Assembly: GCA_015485035.1 (NCBI GenBank)
Contig: WFUI01000004.1
Coordinates: 1-14,130 of the forward strand
Reading direction: 5' to 3'
Origin: Mariprofundus sp.
GTDB taxonomy: Bacteria; Pseudomonadota; Zetaproteobacteria; Mariprofundales; Mariprofundaceae
DNA length: 14,130 nt
In this document: positions 2,944-14,130 of the stretch, piece after piece
Layout: every line of letters starts with the position of its first letter
How positions within the stretch are numbered: position 1 is the first letter of the stretch
Position numbers and translations under genes: made by a program
Notes under the pieces: model-generated
Told to the model about the DNA's origin: nothing
Databases searched by the model: none
Seen by the model: only the letters and a program-made list of their open reading frames with translations

Positions 2944-3474
2944 TCAATTTTTTACTGGTCGCTTGGAGAGCTTTCGCTGCAGGGTCCGCCGGTGTAACCC
3001 CAGCTTTCTGGCCGCCGCAGACACATTACCATCGCATTCATTGAGTACCTTCTGAATATATTCCCACTCCACTCGCCGAACTGATACTGCACTGGGTTCG
3101 ACATCCGCATCCGCATCCCCCTGTTCCCGGCCGAAAGCCTGAATAATTTCATCCGCATTGGCCGGTTTGGCCAGATAATGCACAGCACCGAGTTTGATTG
3201 CTTCCACCGCTGTGGCCACACTGGCATAGCCGGTCAGTACAACAATAGCAGTCTGTGCATTGAACCCGTGCAGTGCTTCCACCAGCGACAGGCCCGAACG
3301 GCCACCCGGCATGGAAAGATCAACCACGGCATAGTCCGGTACCCCTTGCGCTTCAATCAAGGCCAGAGCCTGGTCAACATCATGCGCTACCCGGACTGTA
3401 AAACCACGCTTCTCAAAGGCTCTGCCCAGCACCTGACAAAAGGTCTTATCATCATCCACCAGCAACAACTGCAT
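2944..3474 (-). CDS. regA: RegA/PrrA/RoxR-family redox response regulator
   Basis: A 176-residue response regulator. The receiver domain spans about residues 1-115, with acidic pocket D7/D8/D9, phospho-acceptor D52 in 'VVDLSMPGG', and K103 in 'YLAKPAN'. A linker leads to a short Fis-type helix-turn-helix ('VEWEYIQKVLNECDGNVSAA', 135-154) ending 'LHRRTLQRKLSKRP' (160-173), the near-invariant C-terminus of the RegA/PrrA/ActR/RoxR group. These regulators control respiration, carbon and nitrogen fixation, and terminal oxidases in response to the redox state. I use the ATG at 3474: a longer frame to 3507 lies inside the kinase gene and lacks family similarity. The kinase stop and this start share one base (TAATG), so translation is coupled. 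The gene ends five bases from the convergent perR stop. Confidence 0.93.
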   Translation of the reverse strand: MQLLLVDDDKTFCQVLGRAFEKRGFTVRVAHDVDQALALIEAQGVPDYAVVDLSMPGGRSGLSLVEALHGFNAQTAIVVLTGYASVATAVEAIKLGAVHYLAKPANADEIIQAFGREQGDADADVEPSAVSVRRVEWEYIQKVLNECDGNVSAAARKLGLHRRTLQRKLSKRPVKN

Positions 3475-4754
3475 TATGTCTCCCGTGGTAGCACGATACG
3501 CGCACATGCTCCGCCCTGCTCCGGGTTCGACAGTTTCAGTCTACCACCGAGCCTTTCAATCACGGCGAAGCTCAAAAACAAACCCAGGCCACGACCACTA
3601 CCCTTATTCGATATTTCCGGCTGACCGGCATGCTCCAGTACATAAGCCGGGAACCCATCACCCTGATCACATACCTCCAGCCAAAGCTGCTGCGCATTCC
3701 AGCCAAAGCATACCACCATGCCACGCGCCGCTGCATCTGCTGCATTATTGAGCAGGTTGTGCAGTGCCTGTGTCAGGGTGATATCAGCGACCAGCTCCGG
3801 TGCTTTACCATTACTCTGCTGGTTCAGCCGCACATCAGCCTGCGGCCGCATCACCTGCCAGCGGATCACTGTATCACGTATATATCGATCGAAAGCAATG
3901 CTGCGTCCACCCTCAGCCCGTAATTCGCCCGCACTGGCCGAAAGTTGTGATAAGACCTGCTTACAACGCGCCAGTTCATGCTTGAGGATTGCTGCCTGTT
4001 CGCTGACCTCCTTATTATCGGCAAAATCACAGGCCAGTTCGTGCGATACCACTGCCATCGTTGCCAGCGGTGTACCCAGCTCATGCGCTGCACCGGCAGC
4101 CATCGCTCCAAGCGCCAGAATATGACTGTCACGCTCAGCTGTTTCACGCATCTCGGCCAGGCGCATATCCCGCTGCCGAATACTCAGGCTCATACGCATG
4201 ATAAAGAATACAATCAGCCCGACACTGAGGGCAAAACTGAACCACATGCCCAGCAGATGCAGGTGAAAACCGGCAAACTGATCCGCATGTTGCCCGGCTA
4301 TCACAAACAGGGGGTGATACTCAAACACCATCAACGTATAACAGGAGAGCACAGCCGCAGACATGGCCCATGCATAGCGCTTATCCAGTGTAGTCGCGAC
4401 TACAATCAAAGGCAGCAGGTAGAGTGATACCAGCGGGTTGGTATAACCACCGGAATAGTAAAGCAGTAACGTCAGGAACAGCACATCCACCAGCAACTGC
4501 AGGAAATAGGCACGTTCCGACAAGCCTCTGCTGCCCATCAGTGACAGCAGCGAGATCACATTCACAGTAATATAGAGCGTGATCACAGCCATCACCGGTG
4601 CCAGCGCCAGGCTGATGCTATCATATAATAACGACAGCAGCACCAGCAATAACTGACACAGAATCAATATAACGCGCATCAGTAATACACGCCCCATATT
4701 GCCCGGTAATACAGCCGCAACCAGTGATTTTCCACTTGTTTCAAACCAGTGCAT
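3474..4754 (-). CDS. regB: RegB/PrrB/RoxS-family membrane redox sensor histidine kinase
   Basis: A 426-residue sensor kinase. About six hydrophobic segments occupy residues 20-195, then come the H-box 'AAGAAHELGTPL' (219-230, phospho-acceptor His224), N-box 'HNLLNNAADAA' (332-342), G1 'CDQGDGF' (362-368) and G2 'GSGRGLGLFLS' (385-395). Two redox-sensing traits of the RegB family are conserved: the quinone-interacting 'GGYTNP' (102-107; GGxxNPF type) between membrane segments, and Cys264 in 'LARCKQVLSQLS', which matches the redox-active cysteine of Rhodobacter RegB. I chose the ATG at 4754 because GGAG lies eight bases upstream; a longer frame to 4844 would run through the divergent promoter region. 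It is co-transcribed with regA (one-base overlap) and divergent from the TonB-dependent receptor. Confidence 0.93.
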   Translation of the reverse strand: MHWFETSGKSLVAAVLPGNMGRVLLMRVILILCQLLLVLLSLLYDSISLALAPVMAVITLYITVNVISLLSLMGSRGLSERAYFLQLLVDVLFLTLLLYYSGGYTNPLVSLYLLPLIVVATTLDKRYAWAMSAAVLSCYTLMVFEYHPLFVIAGQHADQFAGFHLHLLGMWFSFALSVGLIVFFIMRMSLSIRQRDMRLAEMRETAERDSHILALGAMAAGAAHELGTPLATMAVVSHELACDFADNKEVSEQAAILKHELARCKQVLSQLSASAGELRAEGGRSIAFDRYIRDTVIRWQVMRPQADVRLNQQSNGKAPELVADITLTQALHNLLNNAADAAARGMVVCFGWNAQQLWLEVCDQGDGFPAYVLEHAGQPEISNKGSGRGLGLFLSFAVIERLGGRLKLSNPEQGGACARIVLPRET

Positions 4755-4901
4755 AAAGACTCCGTCACAATTTTCAGCCCGCAAGCTCGGGGCAATAATA
4801 CAATATACCCGCCACATGCACATGCGACATTTTGCCGCATCCACGTATCACAATCAGTCATTTATAGTTCGCCCATAAAACATGCATTAGGGAGTCATCA
4901 A
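4755..4901. promoter_or_regulatory. Divergent promoter region regB / TonB-dependent receptor
   Basis: A 147-bp spacer with divergent promoters. For the receptor a TATAGT (4863-4868) could be a -10 box without a good -35, and AGGGAG (4889-4894) is the ribosome binding site. For regB, AT-rich DNA at about 4796-4808 could hold the -10. A direct repeat ACATGC-ACATGC lies at 4814-4825, next to the RegA-like inverted repeat listed separately. The lack of a good -35 for the receptor would suit an activator-dependent promoter. Confidence 0.45.
4823..4839. promoter_or_regulatory. Candidate RegA/PrrA operator (inverted repeat)
   Basis: TGCGACA-TTT-TGCCGCA is a 7-3-7 inverted repeat with a single asymmetric position. 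It resembles the published RegA/PrrA recognition pattern, a GC-rich half-site GCGRC and its complement GYCGC separated by a few bases. It lies between regB and the receptor gene, about 45 bases upstream of the start point predicted from the TATAGT at 4863. Autoregulation and control of the receptor are inferred. Confidence 0.5.
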
Positions 4902-7094
4902 ATGAATTATCTGCAACGTAAACACTTCCGGAAACATGCCATTTCACTGGCGGCCGGGTTAATATTATCGGCTGCACCATCGTATGCTGCTGATACTGCC
5001 GCAGTCATTCAGGTCGAGGGCAGCGCACCCACACTGCTGGACAGTGTCACCATTACTCCGGCCGAACAGACATTCAAACCGGTCGATGCTGCCGACCTGT
5101 TAAAATCCACCCCCGGTGCTAATGTAAACAAGAATGGTCCGGTGACCGGCATCGTTCAGTACAGGGGTATGTATGGATCACGCGTAAACGTACAGGTCGA
5201 TGGCCTGAATATTGCTCCAGCCGGGCCGAACTGGATGGACCCTCCCCTGAGCCATGTCGCACCATTGCAACTGGAGAGTATCAAGGTAATACGCGGTATC
5301 TCACCTGTCAGTGCCGGAGCCGAGAGTATTGGCGGCAGTGTGCAGGCCAAAACCGCCAGCCTGCCTTATGCCGACAATGGTACAATCACACCGCACGGCA
5401 CCATGTCCGGCGGTTATGATAGTAATAACAAGGCCTTTAACAGCGCCGCACAGCTCGGTATCAGTGGAACCACAGATCGCCTGCAAATCAATGGCAGCTT
5501 TGACAAAGGCCAGGATATGCAGGCCGGCAATGGCAAGGATATCGTACCAACCCGCTACAAACGCCGCAATATGGGCGTGGAATATGGCCACCGCTTCTCT
5601 GAAGGCGAAGCCAGTCTGGGCTACAGTAATGAGCGTGTTGATAACTCCGGATCCCCGGCCCTGCCAATGGATATCATCTATGTCAAAGGTAATGCCTACA
5701 ACGCTGCCTACCATAGCGATATGGATGCCGCAGGCGTGCGCTGGCTGGCTGATGTGCACTATCTGGATACCGATCACAAAATGGATAACTACAGCCTGCG
5801 TCAGGTGCCATTGATGCTGGGCATGATGTCCATGCCGATGTATCGCTTCGCCACCACCAATGCCAGGGATTTTGCTTACAAGCTGCACACCAGTCTGCCT
5901 GTTGGAAATGGCCGGGTCACAGTAGGTACGGATGGCTGGATGGCCAGACACAATGCCGATGTCTTTGATCCGAAAAACGCAGCTTTTTCCCTGCAAAACT
6001 ACAATGACGTCAAACGAAATCGTTACAGCCTGTTCTCCGAGTGGAATGCCGCCCTGACCGACACGCTTGGGCTCCGGGTCGGCGCACGCTATAGCCGGAC
6101 TCAGATGAACTCCGGTACAGTCGGCGCTACCGGCTTCGCCGGCATGCTGGGTGCACTGATCAACAGACTGTCGAGTGATTTCAACGCCAGCCAGCGATCA
6201 CAAAATGATAATCTGGTCGATCTCTCACTGCAACTGACCCAACGTATCAATGACAACCTGAGCTTCAGTATCGGTGCGGCCAGAAAGCAGCGGGCACCTT
6301 CCTATCAGGAACGTTATTTGTGGTCACCGCTGGAATCGACGGCGGGGCTGGCAGATATGCGCACCTATGTCGGTAATATCGCGCTCAACCCGGAAACATC
6401 CTATAATGTCGATGCCGGATTTGACTGGCACTCCGATCGCATCTATTTCACACCGCGCGTCTTTTTCAAGCGGGTAGACAACTATATTCAGGGTACCGCA
6501 CTGACCAGCGGCACGGCGTATAACTTCCGTGTGGCTCAGGGCAATATGCTGCGCGGCGGTGGCTTCTGCACAGCCAACCCACTCGATCCATTCTGTGTGC
6601 CGCTGCAGTTCTCCAATGTCGACGCCGAATTTTATGGTGCAGATGCAGGCTTCGGCATCAATGTCACCGAACATATCGCCATCGATGGCAGCATCAGCTA
6701 TGTGCGCGGCAAGCGTCGCGACATCAGCGATAACCTCTACCGAATGGCTCCGCTGAACAGTACGGTATCACTGAGCTACTATGGTGATGCGGACTGGTCT
6801 GTCACTGCTGAAGGTGTATTTTATGGTAAACAGGACAAGGTCTCCAGCACCAATAGCGAGCAGGCATCGGCCGGTTACAGCCTGTTTAATCTCAGTGCCC
6901 GTTATGCCATTTCGGCAGGCAGTGAAGTCAGTGTCGGCATCAACAATGTACTGGATCGTTTTTATCAGGACCACCTGGGTGGTTACAACCGCGTTTCCGC
7001 CGATGCATCCGGACAAACTTCGGCAGTACCTGTCGGCAGCCGCATGCCCGGTGAGGGCAGAAGCTTCTTTGTGCAGGCCAGAGCCAACTTTTAA
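4902..7094 (+). CDS. TonB-dependent outer-membrane receptor, possibly for copper or another metal
   Basis: A 730-residue outer-membrane receptor: signal peptide 1-29 (ending PSYA), a probable TonB box around 'DSVTITPA' (47-54), plug domain (about 55-155) with 'VQYRGMYGSRVNVQVDGLNI' (85-104), 'GPNWMDPPLSH' (108-118), 'VIRGISPVSAGAESIGGSV' (129-147), then a 22-strand barrel ending 'SFFVQARANF' with the terminal Phe required for barrel assembly. An extracellular-looking segment carries H292, M294 and five Met in nine residues (305, 308, 309, 311, 313), which suggests binding of a soft metal such as copper. Cys556 and Cys565 could form a loop disulfide. The ATG at 4902 has AGGGAG upstream; an earlier in-frame start at 4749 would remove the signal peptide from the N-terminus. 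A TonB-like gene follows after 14 bp. The substrate is not certain; ferric or haem uptake remains possible. Confidence 0.88.
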   Translation: MNYLQRKHFRKHAISLAAGLILSAAPSYAADTAAVIQVEGSAPTLLDSVTITPAEQTFKPVDAADLLKSTPGANVNKNGPVTGIVQYRGMYGSRVNVQVDGLNIAPAGPNWMDPPLSHVAPLQLESIKVIRGISPVSAGAESIGGSVQAKTASLPYADNGTITPHGTMSGGYDSNNKAFNSAAQLGISGTTDRLQINGSFDKGQDMQAGNGKDIVPTRYKRRNMGVEYGHRFSEGEASLGYSNERVDNSGSPALPMDIIYVKGNAYNAAYHSDMDAAGVRWLADVHYLDTDHKMDNYSLRQVPLMLGMMSMPMYRFATTNARDFAYKLHTSLPVGNGRVTVGTDGWMARHNADVFDPKNAAFSLQNYNDVKRNRYSLFSEWNAALTDTLGLRVGARYSRTQMNSGTVGATGFAGMLGALINRLSSDFNASQRSQNDNLVDLSLQLTQRINDNLSFSIGAARKQRAPSYQERYLWSPLESTAGLADMRTYVGNIALNPETSYNVDAGFDWHSDRIYFTPRVFFKRVDNYIQGTALTSGTAYNFRVAQGNMLRGGGFCTANPLDPFCVPLQFSNVDAEFYGADAGFGINVTEHIAIDGSISYVRGKRRDISDNLYRMAPLNSTVSLSYYGDADWSVTAEGVFYGKQDKVSSTNSEQASAGYSLFNLSARYAISAGSEVSVGINNVLDRFYQDHLGGYNRVSADASGQTSAVPVGSRMPGEGRSFFVQARANF

Positions 7095-7108
7095 TTCGGT
7101 ATTAAGCA

Positions 7109-7921
7109 TTGGCTCCAACAGTGACGGACAAGGACGGTCTGTATAAGCATCTGCTTATCGTCAATGAATATCGTCAGTGCGGGTATAACGGCACATTACG
7201 TCAACTTTCCCTGTCGTTACTGATGGCGCTGCTGGTGCACATGCTACTGATCCGCTTTTCTGCCCCGTTAGAGAAGCACGATGTCCCCCTTCCGCATCGT
7301 GCTTCTCTGCTGACAGTTGAACTGGTCATGTCGGCCATGGCAAATGAAAGCATCGATAAAAAAACTGTCAGTAATCTACCGGCCGAACCGAAACAGATAC
7401 GCCCGAAAGCGGTATCAGTTAGTAAACCGGAATCAACAAAACCCGAACCTGAGATTACACCGAACCCCGGCCAGCGAAGCAAAAAAAAACCGATGCCGGA
7501 TAAAAACACACCGATCCAGCCGCACCATGTACAACACGCGGATCCCGTCATGGAAACCGTTTCTTCTGCTGTCAATATTGCTGTGAAAAACACAAAATCC
7601 AGGGCAGATCTTATAGCAACGCAAGCGAAAAAGAGACAATTGCGGCATCATTATCTGGCTCGGATTATGCGTATGATCCAGGCACACAAGCAGTACCCTT
7701 ATTCAGCTCGCCGTCGGCATATTGAAGGTGATATTCAAATTTCATTCAGCATCAATGCATCCGGCTATCCGGACAACATTCAGATCAGCGGCAAACATGC
7801 TGTTCTGCGGAAATCAACCAGATCAGCAATTGTTGCATCCCTGCCTTTCCCCCCTCCGCCTGCCAATCTCAGTGATTCAACCAGAATCAGTTTCAGTATG
7901 CGTTATCGTTTAATAAATTAA
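7109..7921 (+). CDS. tonB: TonB-like energy transducer (TonB C-terminal domain)
   Basis: A protein of up to 270 residues with the TonB layout: one N-terminal membrane segment (33-49, 'LSLSLLMALLVHMLLIRF' region), a periplasmic linker rich in Pro, Lys and Glu (about 85-135), and a C-terminal TonB domain from about 182 ('YLARIMRMIQAHKQYPYSAR', then 'GDIQISFSINASGYPDNIQI' and 'ASLPFPPPP'). It would couple the proton-motive force to the receptor just upstream, from which it is 14 bp away. The start is unclear: the first codon after an in-frame stop (7103-7105) is TTG at 7109, and a GTG at 7121 is an alternative. Neither has a strong ribosome binding site, so translation probably depends on coupling to the receptor gene. 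No exbB or exbD is in the window. The linker is Lys/Ser-rich rather than a regular EPxP/KP repeat. Confidence 0.85.
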   Translation: MAPTVTDKDGLYKHLLIVNEYRQCGYNGTLRQLSLSLLMALLVHMLLIRFSAPLEKHDVPLPHRASLLTVELVMSAMANESIDKKTVSNLPAEPKQIRPKAVSVSKPESTKPEPEITPNPGQRSKKKPMPDKNTPIQPHHVQHADPVMETVSSAVNIAVKNTKSRADLIATQAKKRQLRHHYLARIMRMIQAHKQYPYSARRRHIEGDIQISFSINASGYPDNIQISGKHAVLRKSTRSAIVASLPFPPPPANLSDSTRISFSMRYRLIN

Positions 7922-8061
7922 GGCCTTTCCAACCTAAGCCCCCGCCAGATGCCAGTTTATTAAATAGTTTTACTCTGACAATTAAGCTTCGGATGAAATT
8001 TTCTGCATTCACAAAAGTATAACAAATTGAATATATTCGGCAGTTGTACTGCAGCAATAAA

Positions 8062-9312
8062 CTATCGTTTCAGATAATCAACCGGAACCCGCCAGAAATG
8101 TGATCGTGATAATATCAACGGCCTGCCCGGAGTCCCTGCTGACAGGCCATAACGCAGTAGTAACAGTAGATCGGAACTCACCGCCGGATTATTGTAGAAA
8201 TAACCGTGTCCAAGCCCTTCGGTGTGTCCCGCATCAATGAAGGCGATATTATTGATATGCTCACCGATTCTTATCTGTGTCTGCATATCTTCGGATCGCA
8301 TCTGGCCGAAACGGAGTACGCTGCTGAATAACATCGATGCCAGCCCCAATGCCTTGTCTTCGGGCGAAACATAGATCGTAATCCGACCAATTCCCTCAGC
8401 CAGTTTTTCGGCAGCAAGGCGTTGCCCGACCACATCCATATCCAAATCCGGTGCAATCAGGACCAAGTCTGCAATTTTATACTCTTGTCGCATATCCTGC
8501 CCGGCTGCACGGGCAGCAATAAACAACTCCCGAATTGCAGAGGTAATCACATCCGTACCCCGGCTGTGTGCCACAATATGAATACGTTCCACCTGATCAT
8601 TCGCAGCAATGGTTTTCAGAAACTGCTTGAGATGGTAAATCGTGAATTCACCGGACTCCCGGTCATAATTATATGCTGTAATCGGCGTACCACCCGCACC
8701 CGATGGCCAACTATACACCACAGGTACACCCTCACGCCCGAGGAAATGCCACATGCCGGCCCAGGTCTCCAGCGCAAACTCCAGCGAATTATCCACCCCG
8801 TGAATGAATAGAAAGATATCCTTGCGCCGACCAATCGCCAGCCTTCGATTGATTTCATGCGTCAATGCACGATCCACCCGGTCTTCATCAACCGTAATCT
8901 TCGCATCGACCTCATATCGGCCATCGTTATAAGTCAGCGGATAGGGTGTGGGAGGAAAACGGGCATGTTCCGACAATGATTCCAGTCGGACAATCGGTCG
9001 TACTGCACGCTTTTGATCCGGCGTCCCAATCGAAAGCAAAGCTGAACCGAAAGCCAGAGACCTGGACCGGCCAGCGCTATACATTAAGCGACCCTGTTTA
9101 TCGCGGTACGCTGTACGATCCGTAACATAGAGCAGATTCACTCGATTACCCGCCAGTTCAGGCGGTAGCGATTCAAACAACTCGGCCTTGCCTGTTGCAT
9201 AAAGCGTAGGCATTGGCATCAAGGCTCGGGGTGTGGTACATCCCGTCAGTATCAATGTAACCAACAGCAGCCCCTTCGACATGCTCACCCGCCTGAGCAG
9301 AGCGAATCGCAT
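8062..9312 (-). CDS. Lipoprotein of the DUF900 alpha/beta-hydrolase family
   Basis: A 416-residue protein with a lipoprotein signal peptide ending in the lipobox L-T-G-C (Cys25), so it is likely membrane-anchored. The body is an alpha/beta hydrolase of the DUF900 type: 'VNLLYVTDRTAY' (58-69), strand plus oxyanion-hole region 'FLFIHGVDNSLEFA' (167-180), 'YSWPSGAGG' (200-208), nucleophile elbow 'VAHSRGTD' with Ser250, acid candidates Asp289/Asp291 in 'IAPDLDMDV', and His369 in 'LGHGYFYNNP'. A Ser-Asp-His triad is therefore complete, but the substrate is unknown for this family. I prefer the ATG at 9312; a downstream ATG at 9279 (MSKG) has a purine-rich GGCGGGTGAG before it and leaves a very short signal peptide. 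The gene lies 72 bp after the polyphosphate kinase gene on the same strand and may be read with it. Confidence 0.82.
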   Translation of the reverse strand: MRFALLRRVSMSKGLLLVTLILTGCTTPRALMPMPTLYATGKAELFESLPPELAGNRVNLLYVTDRTAYRDKQGRLMYSAGRSRSLAFGSALLSIGTPDQKRAVRPIVRLESLSEHARFPPTPYPLTYNDGRYEVDAKITVDEDRVDRALTHEINRRLAIGRRKDIFLFIHGVDNSLEFALETWAGMWHFLGREGVPVVYSWPSGAGGTPITAYNYDRESGEFTIYHLKQFLKTIAANDQVERIHIVAHSRGTDVITSAIRELFIAARAAGQDMRQEYKIADLVLIAPDLDMDVVGQRLAAEKLAEGIGRITIYVSPEDKALGLASMLFSSVLRFGQMRSEDMQTQIRIGEHINNIAFIDAGHTEGLGHGYFYNNPAVSSDLLLLLRYGLSAGTPGRPLILSRSHFWRVPVDYLKR

Positions 9313-9332
9313 CAATGTGCTGCCCGCAATAA

Positions 9333-9362
9333 TTTATAACAATGATTTATGGCTATCGGCAA
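9333..9362 (-). promoter_or_regulatory. Possible sigma70 promoter for the DUF900 lipoprotein gene
   Basis: On the minus strand TTGCCG (9362-9357) is followed after 18 bases by TATAAA (9338-9333), which would put the start point about 15 bases before the ATG at 9312. The boxes are reasonable but unproven, and the gene may also be read through from ppk2. Confidence 0.25.
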
Positions 9363-9384
9363 ACCATCCCCCATCTCCTGATGG

Positions 9385-10215
9385 CTATACACAACCATTG
9401 GAACAAAAAGTTTTCCGAATTGCCTCAATATCTGCACTTGGTTCGGGCAACTGTAAATCCATAGAGTCAAGATATTCAACCACAATCCGGGAAACAATCA
9501 GATTACGGTACCACTTGTAGTTGGATGGAATGATAAACCACGGTGATTTTTTGCTGTTACAGTGAAAGAACACGTCTTCAAACGCATGCTGGTAATCCTG
9601 CCAGTATTTCCTTTCAAGAAAATCTGACTCCGTGACTTTCCACCAGCGGTTCGGATCATCCAGTCGGCGCTGTAATCGCTGCAACTGCTCCTGTTTACTA
9701 ATATGCAGGTAGAATTTCAGAATGTGGGTACCGTGATCTGCCAGATGCTTCTCAAACTGTTTAATTGCACGAAAGCGCTGGCGACAGGTCTTTTTATCGA
9801 TCATGCCATGTACCCGCGTCACCAGCACATCTTCATAATAGGAACGGTTAAAGATCACCACCTCACCTCTGGCTGGCACTGCCCGGTGTGCACGCCATAA
9901 AAAATCATGTGACTGCTCTTCAGGTGTCGGCTGCTTGAACGCCTGAACCCGGCACCCCTGTGGATTCATATAACCGAGTACATGCCGGATCGTGCCATCC
10001 TTACCGCCGGCATCGAGAGCCTGCAGACAGATCAACAGGCTGCGACCGGATTCTGCATATAACCTGTATTGCAGATCGCGCAAACGCTCAGCATAGTGCT
10101 GAATCAGCGGTTCTGCCTCCTGCTTGTCCAGTAGCCCCTCACGTCCATCCGGGTCAACGTCATTGAGGCTGATATGTTGCCTGAGCTTCACCCGGTATTT
10201 GTGACTGAATTTCAT
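9385..10215 (-). CDS. ppk2: Polyphosphate kinase 2 family protein (polyphosphate:nucleotide phosphotransferase)
   Basis: A 276-residue single-domain PPK2. The P-loop is 'LQALDAGGKDGTI' (64-76, Lys72), the Walker B region 'NRSYYEDVLVTRVH' (123-136), and the lid region 'RRLDDPNRWWKVTESDF' (183-199), all typical of the short PPK2 proteins of the TIGR03709 kind (class III-like). These transfer phosphate between polyphosphate and AMP/ADP or GDP in the cytoplasm; the exact nucleotide preference cannot be read from motifs alone. Length and ends match the family. The start at 10215 is well supported: GGAGG lies upstream, and its ATG overlaps the TGA of the RquA-like gene by four bases (ATGA), so the two are translationally coupled. 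The C-terminus (CSNGCV) carries two extra cysteines of no known role. Confidence 0.9.
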   Translation of the reverse strand: MKFSHKYRVKLRQHISLNDVDPDGREGLLDKQEAEPLIQHYAERLRDLQYRLYAESGRSLLICLQALDAGGKDGTIRHVLGYMNPQGCRVQAFKQPTPEEQSHDFLWRAHRAVPARGEVVIFNRSYYEDVLVTRVHGMIDKKTCRQRFRAIKQFEKHLADHGTHILKFYLHISKQEQLQRLQRRLDDPNRWWKVTESDFLERKYWQDYQHAFEDVFFHCNSKKSPWFIIPSNYKWYRNLIVSRIVVEYLDSMDLQLPEPSADIEAIRKTFCSNGCV

Positions 10216-10967
10216 CTATTGCCTCCTTCGGGCTGCGCCTCACCTATAGCCTGCTGAACCTGTATTATACGATATTCCACAAGCCGGTAAAATCCGCCGA
10301 ACAGATCCAGCTGCGTAACTTTACGGCACTGCTTCGCCCGGTGTCCCGCTGCGATTCGTAGCTGTTCATCCAGACACTGACTGTGGAAACCGGGCAGAAA
10401 TGGTTCCAGCCTGCCCAGCAGTATCCGAAATGGCGCAATACGGTACAAATAGTGATTTGCCTCGCCGTACTCGGTAATCAACAAACGTCCGCCAGGACGG
10501 AGCACGCGCGTCACCTCATCCAACACCCGGGCTCTGGCTGCAGGCGGCAACTCATGCAGCAGAAAAAACAATACGATGGTATCAAACTGATCATGCCTGT
10601 AAGCCAGGAACTCGGCATTCATTCGCACCGGATAGAGCCTGTGATTTGCTGCCCGCACTTTGTTTCGAGCCAGCTGCAACTGGGCTGTAGCCACGTCCAT
10701 GATATGCAGCCCCGATGGGCAGTGGTTAAGCAATGCCGGGGTTAGTTGCCCGTACACACAGGTCAACTGCAATGTATTGCCTGCCACAACCGGATCCAGA
10801 CGTGCGAGAGTGGCCTGCATCAAACGGTGATACTGACCAAACAGGATCGCATTGATAACCGGCTGATGATCAAAAAACCAGATACCAACCCGCCACAGGT
10901 ACGCCCACCAGTAGTGACGCGCCAGATAATCCGGCACCCCATCCTGAAAATTACGGTAGAGTGGCAT
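10212..10967 (-). CDS. rquA: RquA-like protein (rhodoquinone biosynthesis family, methyltransferase fold)
   Basis: A 251-residue protein with a class I methyltransferase fold. Its opening 'YLARHYWWAYLWRVGIWFFD' (14-33), then 'LQLTCVYGQLTP' (66-77), 'VLFFLLHELPP' (132-142), 'VLRPGGRLLITEY' (155-167) and the late 'LFGGFYRLV' (222-230) follow the pattern I know for RquA, where the usual glycine-rich SAM motif is replaced by a CVYG-type loop. RquA converts ubiquinone to rhodoquinone, used in anaerobic fumarate respiration. RquA-like paralogues without this role exist, so the function is not certain. The ATG at 10967 has a perfect AGGAGG five bases upstream; the in-frame TTG at 10982 is not needed. 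It overlaps ppk2 by four bases. No fumarate reductase gene is visible in the window. Confidence 0.68.
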   Translation of the reverse strand: MPLYRNFQDGVPDYLARHYWWAYLWRVGIWFFDHQPVINAILFGQYHRLMQATLARLDPVVAGNTLQLTCVYGQLTPALLNHCPSGLHIMDVATAQLQLARNKVRAANHRLYPVRMNAEFLAYRHDQFDTIVLFFLLHELPPAARARVLDEVTRVLRPGGRLLITEYGEANHYLYRIAPFRILLGRLEPFLPGFHSQCLDEQLRIAAGHRAKQCRKVTQLDLFGGFYRLVEYRIIQVQQAIGEAQPEGGNR

Positions 10968-11100
10968 ACAGCCTCCTGGCAATACCGATCTGGCATGACA
11001 GGATGCTCCTGTTTTACCCTCACTACAAGCGAGGAAAAAATAGCTTAACCCTGCTCATACGCTTGTCCTGTTTTCACTTCTCAGCTGAGAATAGCCTGCC
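10968..11100. other. Intergenic region between the cytochrome operon and the rquA-ppk2 genes
   Basis: A 133-bp spacer between same-strand genes. It holds a perfect hairpin ACAGGA-TGC-TCCTGT (10998-11012) followed on the plus strand by TTT, and a perfect 14-base palindrome TTCTCAGCTGAGAA (11078-11091) just after the cytochrome stop codon. TCCTGTTTT occurs twice (11007-11015 and 11066-11074). None is a proper terminator for the minus-strand operon, since the T-tract is missing or on the wrong side. An rquA promoter is expected here, but I see no good boxes. Confidence 0.45.
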
Positions 11101-12372
11101 CTAATCAGGACTCGGTGTATCCGATGTGTGCGCCAGCCCGGACTGCTCGATCATATAATCCACCGCAGCTTTCACCCGTCCGCTGGAACATTCATCACAA
11201 CCACCCTTGGCTGGCATATTGCCACTGCCGCGAATGGCTATTTCGTATAATTTATTCCGTCCCTGATCCAGTAATATATCCCAAACCTGCTTGTCTACCC
11301 CCGGTGCTCCCATCAGTTGATTGGCATGACACATAGCACAGCTGGACTCGTACAGCTTCCTGCCATCGTCCAGACTGAACTTCTGACCTAGATCTACTTC
11401 CACAGCCGGAGGCTGGCTACGAACAGATTTCAGATAGTCAGCAATGGCCAGCATATCAGCCGGAGACAAATAGCGCAGGCTGTTATGCTCTACTCCCCGC
11501 ATCGGTCCGCTCAGCTCAGCATGCGCAGGTGTTTCATTTTTCAAAAAAATATCTGCCACATCCTTGTTGGCGAGATGTTGCAGGCCTTGCGATGTGATAT
11601 TCGGCGCATAATAGCCTTCTACAAATGCACCGGCGAGATAGTGCTCTTTCTCAGGCACGCCGAAATAATTTAGTTTTGTATGGCACAGGGCACAATGCCC
11701 CGGCCCTTCTACGATAAATGCCCCTCGATTTCTTAGCGCAGAATATCCGGGATCCGGTTTGAACTCCCCCTTATTAAAATCGAAAAACAACAACCGCCAG
11801 CCAACCTGCAATATGCGATAATTAAATGGCCACCGCATTTCCTGTTTGTGGTTCTGCTGACGGACGGCAGGAATCACATCAAGGTATGCCTTGATATCCA
11901 GCACATCCTGCCGACTCATTTTATTGAAATAGTTGTAGGGAAATACCGGATAATAATAGGAACCATCGGGGGCTATCCCTTCGCGAACTGCGCGAACAAA
12001 GTCTTCATCACTCCATCGACCAATACCTGTTGTCGTATCCGGCGTAATATTCGGCACATAGACGGACCCGAATGGGGTATTTATTTTCAAACCACCGGCA
12101 AATGCCTGTCCATGTTCAGCTTCATTGGTGTGACAGGTGAAACAATCCGCCATTTTGACCAGGTATTCACCATGCTTGATTTGTTCTGCTGAATGTATGG
12201 AAGCACTCATGTGAAGTTCCGGGTAGCCTGTATCACTGTTGGCAATCGTTGCCGGATTGGCCAGAGCAGGCATGGCATAGACAAGCATTGTCACCACCAC
12301 AACCAGAATTTGCAGCCACATCGCTCTGCTGCTATCGCTTTGATGTTGTACAGTGACCTGTTTACTCATCAT
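11101..12372 (-). CDS. Trihaem cytochrome c (alcohol-dehydrogenase cytochrome-like plus c5-like domain)
   Basis: A 423-residue exported cytochrome with three haem c motifs: CFTCH (77-81), CALCH (227-231) and CAMCH (345-349). The first two domains resemble the cytochrome c subunit of membrane dehydrogenases ('VPNITPDTTTGIGRWSDEDF' at 106-125, 'YYAPNITSQGL' at 254-264). The third is like cytochrome c5, with axial Met386 in 'GNMPAKGGCDECSSG' and the extra CDEC pair (392-395). A hydrophobic stretch at 18-37 is a signal peptide or anchor; ALA at 36-38 could be the cleavage site. The start at 12372 overlaps the stop of the cytochrome b gene by four bases (ATGA); a second ATG follows at 12369. It probably passes electrons between the membrane cytochrome b/octahaem protein and soluble carriers or an oxidase. 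It ends the operon. Confidence 0.88.
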   Translation of the reverse strand: MMSKQVTVQHQSDSSRAMWLQILVVVVTMLVYAMPALANPATIANSDTGYPELHMSASIHSAEQIKHGEYLVKMADCFTCHTNEAEHGQAFAGGLKINTPFGSVYVPNITPDTTTGIGRWSDEDFVRAVREGIAPDGSYYYPVFPYNYFNKMSRQDVLDIKAYLDVIPAVRQQNHKQEMRWPFNYRILQVGWRLLFFDFNKGEFKPDPGYSALRNRGAFIVEGPGHCALCHTKLNYFGVPEKEHYLAGAFVEGYYAPNITSQGLQHLANKDVADIFLKNETPAHAELSGPMRGVEHNSLRYLSPADMLAIADYLKSVRSQPPAVEVDLGQKFSLDDGRKLYESSCAMCHANQLMGAPGVDKQVWDILLDQGRNKLYEIAIRGSGNMPAKGGCDECSSGRVKAAVDYMIEQSGLAHTSDTPSPD

Positions 12373-13037
12373 CTGTCGACTCCACTCCTGATATGCCCCG
12401 GTTCATCCGCCTCCAGATATGCTTCTTCCACATGGGATACATCCACCATATCAAAACCATTCATCATCGGTTTGACGTGAGTAAAAAAACCATCTCCAAT
12501 CGTTAACATATACACATGAATCAACAGAAACAGAATCAGTGCAAAAGCAGCTGCGGTATGCACCATCGCGACAGTGGATGGAAAATTAATCAGGCCCTGC
12601 CAGCTTCCGCCGGAAATCACATAGAGGTAAATCAGACCGGATATCCAGACCATGGGGAAAATCACCACTTTTAACCCCAGATATGCAGCGGCCTGCAACG
12701 GGTTATGTTTACGCCAGAATGCCTTGCGATACGGATGATGCTCGCCCTGGAAAATACCGTAGGAATAAAAACGGACAATGCGCCACAACCCCTGCTTTGT
12801 CGGCATATAATGTTTCCAGTTGCCTGTAGTAAACAACCAGAAGGTAGCGAAGGCCCACAGACACAGTAAGCCGATCGCAACCACAGTATGAATATTCACA
12901 GCCATCTCAAAACTAATCAATGCATGTGTCCCGTGAATGCGCAGGCCGGTAAACAATAGCGTTAATATGGACAAAGCCTGCAACCAGTGCCACAGCCGTT
13001 CAAAGCGGGTGTAAATCATAATCTGGTGCATACTCAT
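12369..13037 (-). CDS. Membrane b-type cytochrome (cytochrome b561 / Ni-hydrogenase b-type family)
   Basis: A 222-residue integral membrane protein with four or five hydrophobic segments. Candidate haem b ligands are histidines in 'RFERLWHWLQAL' near the N-terminus, 'VNIHTVVAIG', 'MVHTAAAF' and 'FLLIHVYML', the layout of PF01292 cytochromes that link quinones to periplasmic oxidoreductases (hydrogenase, formate dehydrogenase and thiosulfate reductase subunits). I chose the ATG at 13037: it has a GGAGGAGAG ribosome binding site, and its ATGA overlaps the stop of the octahaem cytochrome gene. A longer frame to 13139 lies wholly inside that gene. It also overlaps the trihaem cytochrome by four bases. 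It likely forms the quinone-reactive membrane part of the complex encoded by this operon. Confidence 0.88.
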   Translation of the reverse strand: MSMHQIMIYTRFERLWHWLQALSILTLLFTGLRIHGTHALISFEMAVNIHTVVAIGLLCLWAFATFWLFTTGNWKHYMPTKQGLWRIVRFYSYGIFQGEHHPYRKAFWRKHNPLQAAAYLGLKVVIFPMVWISGLIYLYVISGGSWQGLINFPSTVAMVHTAAAFALILFLLIHVYMLTIGDGFFTHVKPMMNGFDMVDVSHVEEAYLEADEPGHIRSGVDR

Positions 13038-14130
13038 GATACTCTCCTCCTCCAAGCAGTAAACATGCGCAATAAAACATGCATCAGAATGCCTGCTGCT
13101 GTCATGGCAATCGTAATCCATGCAGTCCGATCCAACCATGTGAAACGGCTATGCCCTGCCATATAAATACCCTTAATTCCGTTTAAGCGCCCACCTGTTG
13201 TATGACACGACATACATGCTACCGCTTTCTCTTTGGGAGCAACCATATGGGTCGTCGGCCAATACGAATACGTTTTGATAAATCCTACCTGTCCACTGAA
13301 CGGCAGATGTGCATCTTTCATGCCACGCGCAATCGCTTTTTTCAATTTGAAATTACCCCAGAATGATTCATCATCATTGCCCCACAGGTGAGTATAAACC
13401 AGGTTATTGTATCCCTTGTCATATTGCAGCCAGGTGACCATACGTTTGAATGGCCAGATACGCGAAGCCGGGTCATCAGCGGAACCTTTCAGATGATTGA
13501 TCTCGACAGGCCTGGTCGGATCAAAATGGGTATGCACAGTTGTATAAACTGTTTCACCGTTAAACCATGCATAATACGGCACAACATTTTCCCCGTTTTT
13601 GAAATTGCCCTTGATCGACCAATAGGTTTCCCGTTTCTTTCCATTGCCCTGGGTGTAATTCTCTTCCATGAACCCCTTACCGTTTCTGGTACGCCCTGCA
13701 GTGCGCCAATCCCAGAATGTGCGGGTGGCTACACCACCGCGAGCAAAGGCTGGAATATGACAGGATTGACACGCCACCCGCTTCACATGCGTATTGAGCA
13801 CCAGATGTTTGATCGAATCTTTTGGGTGCGGTTGCAAGCCATGACAGGACTCGCAGGATGTGGCCTGACGCCGGAAACCCGGTTTACCTGTACCCTTGGT
13901 ATCGCGCGCCAGCAATTGATAGCGACTACCACTCCACTGATGGTTTTTGGTCACATGGCAGGCAGTACAAGCAAAATTCTGTCCACCCGGGGACATATGG
14001 ACATCCACCGATTTCGGTGGGTCAGCCATGATAGAAGACAGGTCCCCATGTTTGACATTGTCACCGCCACCACCATAAAAATGGCATGATCCGCAATTGG
14101 CTCGGCTTGGTAGCCCGACATGTTGCGCAA
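13034..14130 (-). CDS. otr: Octahaem tetrathionate-reductase-family cytochrome c with C-terminal membrane anchor (partial, N-terminus off window)
   Basis: The frame is open to the right edge, so the start lies beyond the window; the ATG at 14029 is internal. The visible 364 residues include five haem motifs: CGSCH (12-16), CTACH (54-58), CESCH (92-96), CQSCH (120-124) and CMSCH (305-309), counted from the first full codon. Around the first, 'CGSCHFYGGGGDNVKHGDLS' is the hallmark of the Otr family (TIGR04315). Its Lys26 fits the lysine that ligates the active-site haem in Shewanella Otr, with Asp23 three residues earlier. Three more haems would be in the missing part. Known members reduce tetrathionate, nitrite and hydroxylamine in vitro; the physiological substrate is unsettled. 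After the last haem, a hydrophobic helix (about 331-352) with an Arg-rich end forms a membrane anchor. The stop overlaps the cytochrome b start (ATGA). Confidence 0.87.
   Translation of the reverse strand, partial: AQHVGLPSRANCGSCHFYGGGGDNVKHGDLSSIMADPPKSVDVHMSPGGQNFACTACHVTKNHQWSGSRYQLLARDTKGTGKPGFRRQATSCESCHGLQPHPKDSIKHLVLNTHVKRVACQSCHIPAFARGGVATRTFWDWRTAGRTRNGKGFMEENYTQGNGKKRETYWSIKGNFKNGENVVPYYAWFNGETVYTTVHTHFDPTRPVEINHLKGSADDPASRIWPFKRMVTWLQYDKGYNNLVYTHLWGNDDESFWGNFKLKKAIARGMKDAHLPFSGQVGFIKTYSYWPTTHMVAPKEKAVACMSCHTTGGRLNGIKGIYMAGHSRFTWLDRTAWITIAMTAAGILMHVLLRMFTAWRRRVS

Follow-up and report, generated by a model that had tools for sequence, protein, structure and literature searches.

The DNA stretch analysed in the present study (hereafter the window; 14,130 nucleotides, i.e., the entire contig WFUI01000004.1, C4 in our numbering, of a Mariprofundus sp. 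draft genome of 294 contigs and 2.25 Mb) carries at one end three minus-strand genes that probably encode a membrane-bound oxidoreductase of the octahaem tetrathionate reductase (Otr) family with a quinone-linked cytochrome b and an accessory trihaem cytochrome c, the most likely function of the unit being the reduction of nitrite and/or tetrathionate. The gene of the octahaem c-type cytochrome (13034..14130, 364 residues), cut at its 5′ end by the contig end, is followed by those of a b561-type membrane cytochrome b (12369..13037) and of the trihaem cytochrome (11101..12372). As described in the initial annotation of this DNA, the three genes overlap by the four bases ATGA at both junctions, octahaem/cytochrome b (13037-13034) and cytochrome b/trihaem (12372-12369).

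Despite its missing start, the octahaem fragment exceeded the cut-off of the TIGR04315 model (400 versus 375 bits), matched PF11783 and aligned with the Shewanella oneidensis enzyme of PDB entry 1SP3 at an E value of 5e-57. Five of the eight CXXCH motifs of the gene lie inside the window. The complete set was found in P0001, a full-length protein of 542 residues from the protein collection that is 100% identical across all 364 window residues, carries eight motifs (at 68, 118, 141, 190, 232, 270, 298, and 483) and matches 1SP3 at 1e-84. Eight motifs were likewise present in 78 of the 80 named loci examined (the best 80 of 553 confirmed loci), the remaining two being L036, which is cut, and L078, with seven. 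The active-site haem of Otr proteins has a lysine ligand (PMC12285233). In the window protein, the lysine of the motif GGGGDxVKHG (K204 in P0001, codon 14051..14053 on the minus strand) aligns with residue 153 of 1SP3, and lysine occupied this position in all 91 rows of the first homologue alignment, which comprised the 80 loci and 11 further ones, with at least one place entered twice. Residue 153 is that ligand in 1SP3, and Cys64 and Asp150 lie near the active-site haem; at the counterpart of Cys64, 90 of the 91 rows have Cys and one has a gap, and at that of Asp150, 90 have Asp and one has Asn. The score, the motif count beyond the window edge and the retained lysine site thus uphold the Otr-family assignment of the initial annotation. 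MmcA of Methanosarcina (TIGR04314), a member of the same superfamily, was rejected as an identity of the octahaem protein, which scored 26 bits against a cut-off of 250. The structure prediction for P0001 was poor (mean pLDDT 48.6), with a helix at 508-541 in that model.

Contig C87 of the same draft (locus L004) contains the 5′ half of an octahaem gene that is 96.9% identical to the window copy over 422 bases, with 13 mismatches (L004 1-422 against window 13709-14130). This level of identity points to a strain variant or second copy and not to a simple continuation, so that the two versions in one draft would reflect strain mixture or duplication.

The octahaem protein ends in a predicted transmembrane helix (13040..13141, minus strand; hydropathy peak at residues 513-531). 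The helix itself was described correctly at the outset, but its reported ending, RRR, was not, the true terminus being RRRVS. It is also no unusual addition, as had been supposed: of the 91 homologue frames, 90 had a helix near the C-terminus by hydropathy and the remaining one (L011) is a long fused frame that does not end in the anchor helix, and His528 (codon 13079-13081) and Arg532 (codon 13067-13069) at the inner end of the helix were present in all 91 rows. A draw across the phylum gave a similar picture. Among 398 Pseudomonadota genomes, 44 had TIGR04315 matches over the cut-off, at 53 places, of which six belong to Zetaproteobacteria and the other 47 were inspected and serve as the denominator; the draw partly overlaps the 91-row set, and its counts take genomes as they come, ignoring kinship. 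The helix was found at 42 of the 47 places, with HxxxR in 41 of these 42, and only five places were anchorless. Novelty of the anchor was consequently rejected: among the sampled genomes, most Otr proteins are anchored and linked to cytochrome b and few lack the anchor, although the Shewanella enzyme that gave the family its name is soluble. The prevalence of the anchored form makes quinone-linked membrane enzymology central to what Otr does, in place of CymA-type shuttling.

The window cytochrome b scored 84.4 bits against PF01292 (cut-off 30.1). Its residues H17, H50, H160, and H174, conserved in 90-91 of 91 rows with gaps as the remainder, would bind two haems b, in the four-histidine pattern of FdnI-like subunits. 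An identity as the cytochrome b subunit of thiosulfate reductase (NF011582) was discarded at 100.7 bits against 204. In all 80 named loci, cytochrome b directly follows the octahaem gene on the same strand (that of L068 is cut by a contig end), and in the phylum draw it was adjacent or fused at 41 of the 42 anchored places, three of which (L162, L164, and L174) encode Otr and cytochrome b as a single polypeptide. This almost constant linkage, together with the natural fusions, supports the membrane complex with cytochrome b proposed in the initial annotation. At the five anchorless places, no separate cytochrome b gene was found within about 6 kb downstream. In three of them (L180, L181, and L182), the 11-12 kb stretch covered held no cytochrome b; in L178 (1765-5418, plus strand) and L179 (6142-8397, minus strand), a downstream frame joins seven CXXCH motifs and a cytochrome b domain in one chain. 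The heptahaem-cytochrome b frame of L179 (seen as L177) has an HxxxR-type helix between heads and cytochrome b domain, and the anchor-plus-cytochrome b module seems to be portable between multihaem heads.

Gene pairing, natural fusions and residue conservation together lead us to infer an arrangement in which the octahaem head, with its lysine-ligated active-site haem, would lie in the periplasm, the C-terminal helix, with HxxxR at its cytoplasmic end, would dock on the two-haem cytochrome b, and the latter would pass electrons to or from the quinone pool. An addition made in Zetaproteobacteria, the trihaem cytochrome of c5/AdhB type, may link the unit to a periplasmic cytochrome c/terminal oxidase branch. 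Reduction, of nitrite and/or tetrathionate, appears the more likely direction for such a membrane quinol-Otr oxidoreductase, given the published activities of relatives, chiefly BOGUAY_2386 and also S. oneidensis OTR. BOGUAY_2386 of an orange Beggiatoaceae is an anchored Otr for which helices are predicted at both termini and whose gene has a cytochrome b gene downstream, and its activities in methyl viologen assays were up to 93 µmol/min/mg with tetrathionate and 1.29 µmol/min/mg with nitrite (PMC6449678). The function of this kind of complex, regarded as unsettled in the initial annotation, is indeed so in vivo, whereas in vitro an anchored Otr with a cytochrome b neighbour reduces both compounds. 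BOGUAY_2386 shares with the window protein the family, the predicted anchor helix and the downstream cytochrome b; unlike the window, its locus has thiosulfate reductase-like genes alongside, and the available text of that report names no trihaem or Tll0287-like gene there. The S. oneidensis OTR (SO4144, PDB 1SP3), of the same family and with eight haems and the aligned Lys, Cys, and Asp at the active-site haem, is described as soluble (PMC6449678), acts as a reductase and is linked to CymA through STC (PMC4484225), whereas the zetaproteobacterial protein has the C-terminal helix and cytochrome b. For Thermosulfurimonas dismutans TDIS_1882/1883, again an Otr with a neighbouring cytochrome b, a membrane link through the latter was proposed in 2016 (PMC4911364); this organism belongs to another phylum, and a trihaem cytochrome goes unmentioned in the available text. 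The Mariprofundus genome itself encodes a full NapA (C124), a possible periplasmic source of nitrite.

The opposite direction, in which a reduced sulfur or nitrogen compound would be oxidised at the octahaem protein and the electrons passed to quinone via cytochrome b and/or to an oxidase via the trihaem cytochrome, is considered unlikely. It would accord with the lithotrophic or sulfur-oxidising phototrophic life of many named holders, with the c5-type domain that ends the trihaem protein, as c5-type cytochromes feed oxidases, and with the resemblance of the cytochrome b histidine pattern to that of quinone-reducing FdnI-type subunits. The tested relatives, however, are reductases (PMC6449678; PMC4484225), and the haem potentials of S. 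oneidensis OTR are close to the MmcA range of −100 to −450 mV (PMC11024163). A search for SoxB in the 78 Zetaproteobacteria genomes of our class survey gave no match, which speaks only weakly against oxidation because the controls gave none either; a search for cytochrome cd1 was equally empty, controls included, and nothing firm follows from it.

Several observations weigh against reduction of nitrite and/or tetrathionate by a unit so arranged. The activity data stem from a relative in another organism and from methyl viologen assays. Gene context offers no clue to the substrate, since no neighbour family is conserved: besides Otr and cytochrome b, none was seen near more than 6 of the 80 loci in a survey of frames of at least 90 residues within 6.5 kb, the flanks often being shorter than that. 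The holders among the best 80 of 553 loci include, in addition to the Mariprofundaceae and Ghiorsea records that are among the nearest, many Chromatiaceae, Sedimenticola, and Thiodiazotropha, which are sulfur oxidisers and in which an oxidative role is conceivable. TIGR04315 exceeded its cut-off in six of the 78 class genomes (G000, G003, G025, G067, G082, and G091), and NapA did so in one of these six versus 10 of the other 72 (weaker matches uncounted), so that the distribution of nitrate respiration across the class does not follow that of Otr. The anchored fusion L164 has no HxxxR, and the anchored Otr of L169/L183 has no cytochrome b within 8.8 kb downstream. Finally, a trihaem gene occurs without a TIGR04315 match in five class genomes (G030, G077, G094, G064, and G070), which leaves the role of this cytochrome within the Otr unit unproven.

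The trihaem cytochrome contains PF00034 and PF13442 domains and three CXXCH motifs (12144-12130, 11694-11680, and 11340-11326, minus strand), and its relatives in the PDB are 8gy3 (E value 8e-55), 7w2j, 8gy2, and cytochromes c5/c551/c555. The first domains resemble the cytochrome subunits of the AdhB/FDH type, and the last a c5-type cytochrome. In the AdhB/FdhC-type subunits of membrane dehydrogenases (8gy3 and 7w2j), the homology covers the first two haem domains and, for 8gy3, extends into the third; in contrast to these subunits, the third domain matches c5/c551/c555, and no gene for a partner dehydrogenase subunit was found among the window genes scanned, the neighbours of relatives being mostly without annotation. 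In the class survey, a trihaem match (threshold E ≤ 1e-30) was present in 15 of 78 genomes, that of G022 being only 37% identical. The gene directly follows cytochrome b in all six Otr-bearing members of the class, and was seen near none of the 76 other named loci among the best 80 of 553 and at none of the 47 phylum-draw places, where mostly 1.4-2 kb downstream was covered. The conserved linkage expected in the initial annotation therefore holds within Zetaproteobacteria and was not seen beyond the class in the genomes examined.

This linkage has to be set against the possibility that the trihaem cytochrome is merely co-transcribed and does a job of its own, general electron delivery to oxidases, without contact with Otr-cytochrome b, an explanation that we regard as possible but not probable. 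It draws on the five genomes without a detected Otr, three of which are nearly or fully complete (G030 at 100%, G077 and G094 at 95%); the missing Otr of G064 (78%) and G070 (68%) could reflect genome incompleteness. The G030 trihaem gene (L118), with neither octahaem nor cytochrome b in its neighbourhood, keeps LeuC- and LysR-like neighbours (identified by eye) as in G083 (L120), and the LysR-like one also stands beside the trihaem gene of G082 (L124), which has Otr-cytochrome b. Moreover, 1052 relatives were found at E ≤ 1e-60, and Chromatiales, Betaproteobacteria, and Rickettsiella are named among the 120 listed, as is Ghiorsea bivora. On the other side stand the ATGA overlap with cytochrome b in the window and the 6/6 linkage in Otr-bearing class members, which are split on the trihaem tree, G082 standing in one part and the remaining five in another; possession of Otr requires two changes on this tree. 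The fixed stoichiometry suggested initially fails for the trihaem cytochrome, since it occurs without a detected Otr in five genomes of the class and has many relatives, some outside it, and its candidacy as an obligate subunit was rejected on the same five genomes. It looks like an accessory carrier, i.e., a class-limited and separable addition to Otr-cytochrome b. In G083, the trihaem and cytochrome b genes run up to a contig end, and in G079 the trihaem gene stands at a contig end, with an octahaem fragment elsewhere in the genome. The Otr-less trihaem gene of G030 (L118 9207-12186) adjoins an NnrS gene on the opposite strand. A scan of viral contigs with the trihaem protein gave no relative.

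Upstream of the octahaem gene, contig C87 carries a gene for a Tll0287-like (PF11845) monohaem protein, and a relative precedes the octahaem gene in all four class genomes with upstream sequence (G003, G025, G067, and G091), which gives the zetaproteobacterial set Tll0287-like monohaem, Otr, cytochrome b, and trihaem cytochrome. A Tll0287-like relative (86 bits) was also observed after Otr-cytochrome b at a locus titled Hyphomicrobiales (L069 10565-11107, plus strand); the Tll0287-Otr link is thus not solely zetaproteobacterial. The four-gene set of Zetaproteobacteria appears to be new, the anchored Otr-cytochrome b pair being already known. No description of a trihaem-linked Otr or of an Otr-receiver fusion was recognised in the literature as far as its text was available, which is weak evidence of absence; two Zetaproteobacteria-related papers mention octahaem tetrathionate reductases in passing (PMC5566968; PMC10734462), and triheme cytochromes are reported for Ca. 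Tenderia electrophaga (PMC5371394). As a testable case, the cluster joins an Otr unit to a cytochrome of probably high potential, in a group that includes iron oxidisers.

Among the side results, the receiver fusions were the most surprising. At three phylum-draw places, octahaem protein, cytochrome b and a receiver-like tail form one chain: L162 (1839-4538, minus strand) and L164 (1786-4638, plus strand), both with PF00072, and L174 (774-3209, minus strand). Additionally, 15 of the 38 separate cytochrome b frames of the draw are long (336-492 residues), and PF00072 was detected in all four of the 18 fused or long frames that were scanned with Pfam, i.e., in L162 and L164 and in the cytochrome b-receiver genes that follow Otr in L010 (313-1371, minus strand) and L012 (2995-4029, plus strand). 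Four database proteins with receiver-type fusions were among the matches listed, all from Magnetococcales, and this order is also the one named for the database twins of L162 and L174. These fusions, together with the upstream Tll0287-like monohaem protein, whose domain occurs in sensors, might suggest that the octahaem-cytochrome b pair serves in redox sensing or as a regulated point of entry and not as a bulk respiratory enzyme. We consider this very unlikely: judged by tail length in the first alignment, the window cytochrome b has no receiver extension, nor have 86 of the 91 further cytochrome b rows, the lysine site is retained, and relatives turn over substrate.

Beyond the proposed reductase, a broader idea can be put forward, doubtful as it is: the trihaem cytochrome recruited in Zetaproteobacteria might tie Otr-cytochrome b into the high-potential periplasmic chain and so create a three-way junction between quinone, periplasmic cytochrome c and the octahaem active site. 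If this were true, electrons from the iron-oxidation chain could directly drive nitrite or tetrathionate reduction, or electrons from a substrate could instead be split between quinone and oxidase. More generally, the HxxxR anchor helix with cytochrome b would be a conserved membrane module to which a receiver, as in Magnetococcales, or a different multihaem head, as in L178 and L179, can be attached.

Directly after the trihaem gene, the window carries a gene for an RquA-like methyltransferase (10212-10982, minus strand), which scored 166 bits against NF038261 (cut-off 175); rhodoquinone synthesis is possible from this gene, though its score is below the cut-off. It is followed by a gene for a PPK2 polyphosphate kinase (9385-10215). 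In G003 (L104 5724-8550), genes for a MauG-like dihaem protein and a Fur-family-like protein (by eye) directly adjoin the trihaem gene, unlike in the window, where about 8 kb (2944-10982) separates the latter from the MauG-like and Fur-family genes and accommodates a RegA/RegB-like pair, a TonB-dependent receptor, TonB, PPK2, the RquA-like gene, and others.

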